Assembly: GCA_025351565.1 (NCBI GenBank) | Contig: JANXVR010000174.1 | Location: forward strand, 1-36,223 | DNA length: 36,223 nt | Source of the DNA: Actinomycetes bacterium | GTDB lineage: Bacteria > Actinomycetota > UBA4738 > HRBIN12 | Direction: 5' to 3' | In this document: piece after piece, positions 9,488-11,691 of the stretch | How the letters are laid out: each line of letters starts with the position of its first letter | Position numbering within the stretch: the stretch's first letter is position 1 | Translations under genes and position numbers: made by a program | Notes under the pieces: generated by a model | Seen by the model: only the letters and a program-made list of their open reading frames with translations | Database searches by the model: none | What the model was told of the DNA's origin: nothing

Positions 9488-10168
9488 TCACGTCGCTCGC
9501 GGACCGAACAACGCCGTTCCGATCCGCACCATCGTAGCGCCTTCCTCGACGGCGATCGGGTAATCCAACGACATTCCCATGGAGAGTTCCAGCACTTCAG
9601 GGTAGGTTCGGCGCAGCTCATCGCGGAGATCTCGGAGCCGGCGGAAGTACGGACGGGCATCCTCCGGGGTCTTGGGCACGGGCGGCACCGTCATGAGCCC
9701 CGTCAGCCGAACCCCTTCCAACGAGGCCACGAGGGAGGCCGCCTCGGCCAGGTCCTCGGGCCGGACACCGGAGCGTTCGGCCGTGAAGTCCACCTCGATG
9801 AGGACATCCAGGTTCCGGCCGGCGCGAGCGGCCCTGCCGGCCAGTCGTCGGAGCGCCCCCTCCCCCGAGATGGTCTCGACGACACCCGCGAGATCGGCCA
9901 CGTGATGCGCGGTGCCGCGCTGCAACGTTCCGATGAAATGCCACGTGACGTCCGGGAAGACGGGCGCCTTCTCCCGCAGCTCCGTCACGTAGTTCTCTCC
10001 CACGGCGGTGACCCCGGCGTCTACGACCCATCGGACGGCCTCCACCGGCACCAGCTTGGCGGCGGCGACGATGGTGACGCGCGCAGGGTCTCGGCCCGAG
10101 CGCGCGGCGGCATCAGTGATGGCCGCGGTGATATCGGCGAGGTTCGCGAGAACGTGGGCCTTGTCCAT
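9488..10168 (-). CDS. YggS-family PLP-binding protein (PLP homeostasis)
   Basis: VTIVAAAKLVPVEAVRWVVDAGVTAVGENYVTELREK...WHFIGTLQRGTAHHVA...LSMGMSLDYPIAVEEGATMVRIGTALFG. Confidence 0.94.
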   Translation of the reverse strand: MDKAHVLANLADITAAITDAAARSGRDPARVTIVAAAKLVPVEAVRWVVDAGVTAVGENYVTELREKAPVFPDVTWHFIGTLQRGTAHHVADLAGVVETISGEGALRRLAGRAARAGRNLDVLIEVDFTAERSGVRPEDLAEAASLVASLEGVRLTGLMTVPPVPKTPEDARPYFRRLRDLRDELRRTYPEVLELSMGMSLDYPIAVEEGATMVRIGTALFGPRAT

Positions 10169-10189
10169 TAGCCCTAGAGGATATGGAAC

Positions 10190-10260
10190 GAGGGCGGGGA
10201 GGCCCGCTCACTGCCACGAGGCGGGGGAAGGTCGCCTCGGGCTGGAACCTCCCCGCCCTC
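10190..10260. repeat. 71-nt nested inverted-repeat element between ftsZ and yggS
   Basis: Outer perfect 13-bp arms GAGGGCGGGGAGG (10190-10202) / CCTCCCCGCCCTC (10248-10260); inner 7-bp stem CGAGGCG (10217-10223) / CGCCTCG (10233-10239). Confidence 0.8.
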
Positions 10261-10305
10261 AGGTCCGCGCGGGGCCGCGCGGCAGGGCGGGCTTGCTTGC
10301 CCGGC

Positions 10306-11490
10306 CTAGCTCTTCAGGAAATCTGGGATGTCCAGATCCTCCTCCGCATCGAACGAAACCGAAGCGGGCTCGGGTTCGTTGGTCGGCGCGAAGATATCGG
10401 CCTCGTCGTCTAGATCCTCGGCCAGGATGGACGGCAGGGACGAGTCGGACGCGCTTCGGCGACCGGTGCGAACCGGCTCCTCGAGCAATCGGGACAGGCG
10501 GTTCTCGAATCGGTTCTGATCGCCGGTGCCGGCCACGGGGGAGGTCTTGTCGAACCCTGCCGCTACGACCGTCACGCGGACCTCTTCACCCAGCGCATCG
10601 TCGACGACCGCGCCGAAGATGATGTTGGCGTCGGGGTGCGCCACTCGAGTGATGGCCTCGGCGGCCAGGTTGACCTCATGAAGCGAGAGGTCGGTGGGGC
10701 CGGCGATCGAGAGCAGCACACCCTTCGCGCCGTCGATGGAGGATTCGAGCAGGGGCGAGCTGATGGCAGCCTTCGCGGCCTCGACGGCCCGATCCGCCCC
10801 CGAACCGATACCGATACCCATGAGAGCAGACCCGGCGCCGGTCATGACCGACTTCACATCGGCGAAGTCCAGGTTGATGAGACCCGGGGTGGTGATGAGC
10901 GAAGTGATCCCGTCAACGCCTTGGAACAGGACCTGATCCGCCATGCGGAACGCGTCCACCATCGGGGTGCTGGGGTCCGACACCTGGAGAAGTCGATCGT
11001 TGGGAACCACGATGAGGGTGTCGACGGCCTTCTTCAATTCGGTGATGCCGACGTCGGCCTGGGTCGCGCGCTTGCGACCTTCGAAGCCGAAGGGGCGGGT
11101 GACCACGCCGATGGTGAGGGCGCCCAGACCCTTAGCGATCTCGGCGATGACGGGGGCACCACCGGTCCCCGTTCCGCCTCCCTCACCGGCCGTGATGAAC
11201 ACCATGTCCGCGCCCTTGAGGATCTCTTCGATCTCATCGCTGTGCTCGTGCGCCGCGGCCTGCCCGACCTCGGGATCCGAACCGGCCCCAAGGCCTCGCG
11301 TGGTCTCCCGGCCGATGTCGAGCTTGACCTCCGCGTCGGACATCAGCAGGGTCTGCGCGTCCGTGTTCACGGCGATGAACTCGACGCCCCGGAGGCCTGC
11401 CTCGATCATCCGGTTCACCGCATTCACACCACCGCCACCGATGCCGATGACCTTGATCACCGCTAGGTAGTTCTGGGGAGCATCGATCAT
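10306..11490 (-). CDS. ftsZ: Cell division protein FtsZ
   Basis: [32 protein letters not shown]...[20 protein letters not shown] tubulin signature; SD GGAGG upstream of ATG 11490. Confidence 0.98.
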
Positions 11491-11691
11491 GGAGAGCCTC
11501 CGAATTCCCGGACCCCGGTCCGGCTAGCTTGGGAAGGTGCTACCTACGTACCAGACCCTAACTGTAAACTATATGGTTATTGTTATATCTACCTAACGTA
11601 GAAGTACGGAGCCTACTAAGAACATGCTGGTCCGTCAAGCATCTTGGTCAACCAGATGAACACACTCTTGGCAGTTCCTCGGGCCCTACAG
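11491..11691 (-). promoter_or_regulatory. AT-rich ftsZ upstream region
   Basis: Conspicuously AT-rich stretch in a GC-rich window (aactgtaaactatatggttattgttatatctacctaacgtagaag). Candidate TTGACG-N17-TAGGCT promoter (11638 to 11610, minus), plus a hairpin CCGGACC-CC-GGTCCGG (11508-11523) just before the SD. Confidence 0.6.

Follow-up and report, generated by a model that had tools for sequence, protein, structure and literature searches.

Location and structure of the element

The level of FtsZ sets the timing of division, and to our knowledge few controls of ftsZ at the RNA level are known. The window (the whole analysed stretch of 36,223 nt) raises the question of what a nested inverted repeat does in the 137-nt spacer between the ftsZ stop codon (10306) and the yggS start codon (10168). 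Both genes lie on the minus strand and are followed by sepF, a yggT-like gene (called from reading only) and divIVA. An earlier note had described perfect 13-bp arms, a 7-bp hairpin nested within them and two further hairpins, and all four were recovered at the positions listed in Table 1. The RNA fold of the spacer on the minus strand, which is the ftsZ mRNA strand, had an energy of -83.9 kcal/mol, compared with -64.8 ± 4.5 kcal/mol for dinucleotide shuffles (z = -4.2, 0 of 200 as good). The plus-strand spacer gave z = -2.6 against the same kind of reference. The nested inverted repeat at 10190-10260 is real, and a chance origin is unlikely.

Table 1. Features of the ftsZ-yggS spacer and its flanking genes, with positions in the window.
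Feature	Position	Strand	Remarks
yggS	9488-10168	-	Pfam Ala_racemase_N; gene after the element here; pgeF/yfiH in other members
Candidate -10, TATCCT	10178-10183	-	9 nt upstream of the yggS start; immediately follows the element
Outer stem, 3' arm, RNA CCUCCCCGCCCUC	10190-10202	-	Perfect complement of 10248-10260 over 13 nt; covarying helix 1 (19 relatives)
Internal loop, 3' side (variable linker)	10203-10216	-	Length and sequence differ among relatives
Inner hairpin, 3' arm, RNA CGCCUCG	10217-10223	-	
Inner-hairpin C-rich loop, RNA ACCUUCCCC	10224-10232	-	Class consensus nCCUUCCCC; CCUUCCCC identical in 22/22 relatives
Inner hairpin, 5' arm, RNA CGAGGCG	10233-10239	-	GAGGCG invariant in 22/22; closing pair A-U/C-G/G-C covaries
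Internal loop, 5' side (variable linker)	10240-10247	-	Differs among relatives
Outer stem, 5' arm, RNA GAGGGCGGGGAGG	10248-10260	-	Helix 1 paired in 95.5% of cells
Small upstream hairpin with box CGCGCGGCCC	10265-10282	-	In many relatives, the box lies 4-11 nt upstream of the outer stem
Hairpin CGGGC-TTGCTT-GCCCG	10288-10303	-	Adjoins the ftsZ stop codon; genome-specific, not conserved in relatives
ftsZ	10306-11490	-	Pfam Tubulin and FtsZ_C; element follows the ftsZ 3' end in every relative

The anatomy of the element in the class is as follows. After the ftsZ stop codon, the mRNA has approximately 33 nt that often carry CGCGCGGCCC, followed by the outer 5' arm (G)GGGGCGGGGAGG, a variable linker, the inner hairpin GAGGCG-nCCUUCCCC-CGCCUC, a second variable linker and the outer 3' arm CCUCCCCGCCCC(C). 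The next gene then follows, either directly or after a nearby promoter-like sequence. Among class members, the median distance from the stop codon to the stem was 33 nt, and the fold energy of the element ranged from -39 to -57 kcal/mol. Conservation was confined to the nested hairpin and, in part of the relatives, the CGCGCGGCCC box; the hairpin next to the stop codon was not kept. The box was counted by eye in approximately 13 of 22 relatives and was absent from the rest, so its hairpin is an optional part of the element.

Copy number and distribution

One option raised in the earlier note was a small REP- or MITE-like repeat, to be judged by the copy number. Searched at the DNA level, the genome itself (2.63 Mb, 293 contigs) had a single copy, and no second element with the inner core at ≤3 mismatches was detected there. 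The related genomes also had one copy each, at the same locus each time. A mobile repeat would fit the inverted-repeat form, but not one copy per genome at a constant locus; multiple copies were not found, the repeat reading is refuted, and its probability is close to nil.

The direct DNA search returned homologues from the family and order of this genome, and those with long enough flanks follow ftsZ. A 19-sequence covariance model matched 23 of the 27 class genomes. Wherever ftsZ was detected in the class (22 genomes), the element lay at its 3' end. In 21 of them, ftsZ and the element were on one contig, and in the other (G019) a contig edge falls right at the stop codon. In the five class genomes without the element at ftsZ, ftsZ itself was also not detectable. 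The 23rd match of the model was at a locus other than ftsZ. No match at E ≤ 0.01 was found outside the class among the 397 phylum genomes searched.

A scan of 84,980 species for the exact pattern yielded 21 matches. Of these, 17 belong to this lineage and are mostly in the same assemblies; the other 4 lie outside it. The exact core in Acetobacteraceae, Zoogloeaceae, Verrucomicrobiia and Chloroflexia is read in frame as E-A-T/A-F-P-R-L with no ftsZ nearby, and these matches were rejected as chance coding matches. The lineage is an uncultured group of Actinomycetota, whose records include HRbin12, UBA5182, UBA5176 and the soil MAGs AC_45 to AC_69.

The 23rd match of the model is a weak candidate second copy in one genome (G025; L060 1501-1570, G025:C74:3529-3598) between genes read as phoX-like and pstS-like, with E = 0.039, a value at which one chance match over 27 genomes is unsurprising. 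This candidate has the same CCUUCCCC loop on a different but fully complementary inner stem. If it is real, it would suggest that the loop and the pairing matter and not the stem sequence. Assembly breaks tend to fall at the element (G017 C295/C348, G019 C128/C170 and G015 C42), as expected from its strong GC hairpin, and its frequency may be underestimated in fragmented MAGs.

Selection on the structure and the loop

Covariation in the relatives, one of the checks proposed in the earlier note, was detected. In a structure-guided alignment, which was fitted to the proposed structure and is hence biased in its favour, 96.6% of cells were paired and double changes occurred in 9 of 20 pairs. The number of double-changed cells was 30, compared with 9.4 in the shuffled and at most 5 in the slid controls, and the outer stem covaries. 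The covariation score was 0.289, compared with 0.154 for shuffled and 0.078-0.134 for slid partners. The initial MAFFT alignment still gave 6 pairs with double changes. Read on the ftsZ mRNA strand, the stems of the 22 members contained 19 G-U cells against 4 A-C mismatches, although these cells are not independent because the members are related. Given this excess of G-U over A-C, selection appears to act on the RNA of the ftsZ mRNA strand rather than on a DNA palindrome. With compensatory changes beyond the controls and this wobble asymmetry, the element is a conserved structured RNA, specific to the class.

A protein-binding site in the DNA was also considered. Three GGCGGGGNAGG-like motifs, one of them inverted, would control the downstream promoter or ftsZ, and the RNA structure would be incidental. 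The frozen 20-bp core, the arm motif directly repeated on the plus strand of the element and the -10 found near the element in some members would suit such a site. Its binding does not account for compensatory changes that keep the pairing, nor for the G-U excess, which fits an RNA made from one strand; moreover, among class members the -10 lies anywhere between about 5 and 90 nt from the element. We regard this explanation as improbable.

The inner hairpin was the most constant part, with 18 of 21 columns invariant in the 22 members. In comparison, 0 of 122 four-fold degenerate sites of ftsZ were invariant in 18 of the same members, and their mean pairwise identity was 47%. The loop is therefore under strong constraint.

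The 3' end of ftsZ

In many relatives, the gene downstream of the element is pgeF (yfiH; PF02578) instead of yggS. Judged by eye, about half of the class members have a TAnnnT-like -10 that precedes the start codon of the following gene by 4-9 nt. A leaderless-type -10 close to the start codon is common in Actinomycetota. The short and near-constant distance from the stop codon, the changing downstream gene and the downstream -10 point to an element that is part of the ftsZ message and not of the next gene or the ftsZ-yggS junction. The earlier note had offered a structured cis-acting RNA between ftsZ and yggS-sepF. Class-wide conservation and covariation bear out the structured RNA; its assignment to that junction fits poorly with an element tied to the ftsZ 3' end, where pgeF often replaces yggS.

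As in a canonical terminator, a G/C-rich hairpin closely follows the stop codon. A U-tract is absent: the tail here is GUUCCAUAUC, in agreement with the earlier note. In the 22 relatives, the 10 nt after the stem contained a mean of 2.8 T (range 0-5), compared with 1.5 expected. Outside the class, a plain strong hairpin directly after ftsZ is common (L146, L148, L150, L155, L158, L163, L166 and L167), and L155 and L163 have a GGGCGGGG-type stem like that of the element together with a U-rich tail. At 25 ftsZ loci of genomes outside the class, the region after ftsZ showed only simple hairpins and no proto-element. Judging from these loci, ftsZ in other Actinomycetota often seems to be closed by a terminator-like structure of its own.

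The missing U-tract is a weakness of the terminator reading, softened by the report that hairpin clusters near stop codons act as terminators (PMC8355165). Like the element, these U-tract-less terminators have their strong hairpins no more than 80 nt from the stop codon. The absence of a T-tract is compatible with a terminator role. The earlier note had called a simple terminator not an obvious fit, which is right as to the T-tract; the element may still be a terminator because simple hairpins occupy the same place in other Actinomycetota and promoter-like sequences often come after it.

We propose that the element is the 3'-end structure (for termination or end protection) of a separate ftsZ unit, with an invariant C-rich loop as a recognition site in trans, and we give this explanation about an even chance. 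The long G/C outer stem would be the ftsZ terminator and/or a 3'-end barrier against exonucleases. It would split a monocistronic ftsZ unit from the pgeF/yggS-sepF-divIVA unit, which would often start at its own promoter just after the element. The nested hairpin would be the addition of this class to the ftsZ terminator or 3'-end structure. The C-rich loop would be shown to a hypothetical trans-acting partner, either a G-rich RNA or an RNA-binding protein, which may tune the level or stability of the ftsZ mRNA. From the sequence comparisons, a terminator or 3'-end function is likely, and trans recognition of the loop is plausible.

No promoter was seen between the element and the next gene in five members (G004, G006, G018, G020 and G021), so read-through would be needed there, which counts against the proposed explanation. 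These members would suit an intercistronic processing or stability element, that is, an RNase site or barrier in a polycistronic ftsZ-yggS/pgeF-sepF mRNA, which would make the levels of its two halves unequal. Its position between cistrons and the stem stability of -39 to -57 kcal/mol would agree with this. However, the element stays with ftsZ while the downstream gene differs, and promoter-like sequences stand right after it in about half of the members. We consider such a processing role unlikely.

Possible role of the loop

Termination alone needs no invariant loop. We know of no reason to expect conservation of the loop sequence in ordinary terminators; here, in contrast, the nested 21-nt hairpin is nearly frozen across the class. 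A co-transcriptional folding switch was examined, in which the 5' outer arm would first pair with the inner loop and the 3' inner arm and be displaced once the 3' outer arm was made. Prefix folding predicted this arm exchange for 20 of 22 members, and at full length the nested form was favoured. However, composition-matched shuffled arms were nearly as good, and G001 and G022 hardly or cannot form the exchanged pairing, although their loop is unchanged. The switch is not supported, and we hold it to be very improbable. Neither termination nor arm exchange explains the constancy of the loop, and therefore recognition in trans remains as the plausible explanation.

Among the sepF and divIVA ribosome sites and the ftsZ leader, no conserved pairing target for the loop was found, and no trans partner came to light, which counts against the recognition part of the proposal. 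Pairing with the ribosome sites of ftsZ, sepF or divIVA was rejected as no better than chance or not conserved. Pairing between the loop and the ftsZ leader (5'-3' UTR, icaR type) was also rejected, the fraction of shuffles as good being 0.09-0.89. The icaR 3' UTR of Staphylococcus aureus (PMC3868564) likewise has a C-rich 3' UTR motif on the message of the regulated gene; unlike icaR, the element has a loop whose pairing with the leader was no better than shuffled.

The hairpin may instead be a 3' UTR-derived sRNA, released or terminated with the ftsZ mRNA, whose C-rich loop would pair with G-rich ribosome sites of other mRNAs in the manner of 6C/B11. The C-rich loops of the sRNA B11 repress targets through G-tracts in their 5' UTRs (PMC10470900), and the element has a C-rich hairpin loop of invariant sequence and its own stable 3' structure. 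The weak second copy in G025 (L060), which keeps the loop on a different complementary inner stem, would also agree with an sRNA. However, the 6C covariance model of Rfam gave no match up to E = 10, the loop is CCUUCCCC and not a C-run, and a conserved G-rich target was not found in sepF, divIVA or the ftsZ leader. This alternative is possible but rather unlikely. The mycobacterial 6C/B11 sRNA resembles the element in its C-rich loop on a hairpin in a high-GC actinobacterium; it differs in being an sRNA with two C-run loops, whereas here one loop in a long stem is tied to ftsZ. By analogy, B11/6C may serve as the closest worked example of loop recognition in high-GC actinobacteria.

Comparison with known RNAs

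Searches against Rfam 15 gave 0 matches at the gathering cut-off and only chance-level matches at E ≤ 10, and a known Rfam family was rejected as the identity of the element. Its description was not found in literature searches. The element is an RNA structure at the ftsZ 3' end that is absent from Rfam. Comparative genomics has reportedly yielded RNA motifs named after ftsZ, such as 'ftsZ-DE', which would also be a structured RNA linked to ftsZ. The element is outside every Rfam 15 family, and hence outside any ftsZ motif listed there. CcsR1 and the CCUCCUCCC-loop RNAs of alphaproteobacteria share with it a pyrimidine-rich loop resembling the anti-Shine-Dalgarno sequence, but the match of CcsR1 to the element was at chance level (13 bits compared with a gathering value of 65.3).

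We tentatively speculate, at clearly less than even probability, that this is an undescribed RNA family in which the 3' loop of the ftsZ mRNA would be read by a trans-acting RNA or protein to set the FtsZ level, or would be released as an sRNA; the ftsZ leader has a similar UUCCCC box that may act jointly with the loop. A structure fixed at the ftsZ 3' end class-wide, with a loop kept far beyond the needs of termination, offers a concrete starting point for testing whether division in Actinomycetota is controlled post-transcriptionally, and the element is a new motif for RNA databases.

The ftsZ leader

The region upstream of ftsZ (11523-11640 of the window, minus strand) is also conserved in the class, as seen in the leaders of about 21 relatives. 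In order, it carries a promoter-like TTGACG-17-TAGGCT and the AT-rich motif GTAGATATAACAATAA with AGTnGAGGTT. The box GGCnnYUUCCCCAGGUAG (CACCTTCCCAAGCTAG in this genome) comes next, then a hairpin and the Shine-Dalgarno sequence CGGAGG. The conserved promoter-like region was counted in favour of a separate ftsZ transcription unit. The leader had no meaningful Rfam match. The AT-rich motif occurred once per genome, at ftsZ, in 7 of the 8 genomes searched. Matches of the leader box elsewhere were mostly at coding or unrelated positions. In some relatives, a box TTTCCGCAGGTAG resembling that of the ftsZ leader recurs in non-coding DNA next to genes for potC-like transporters (L185, L192 and L193, at about 949, 1500 and 132, respectively).
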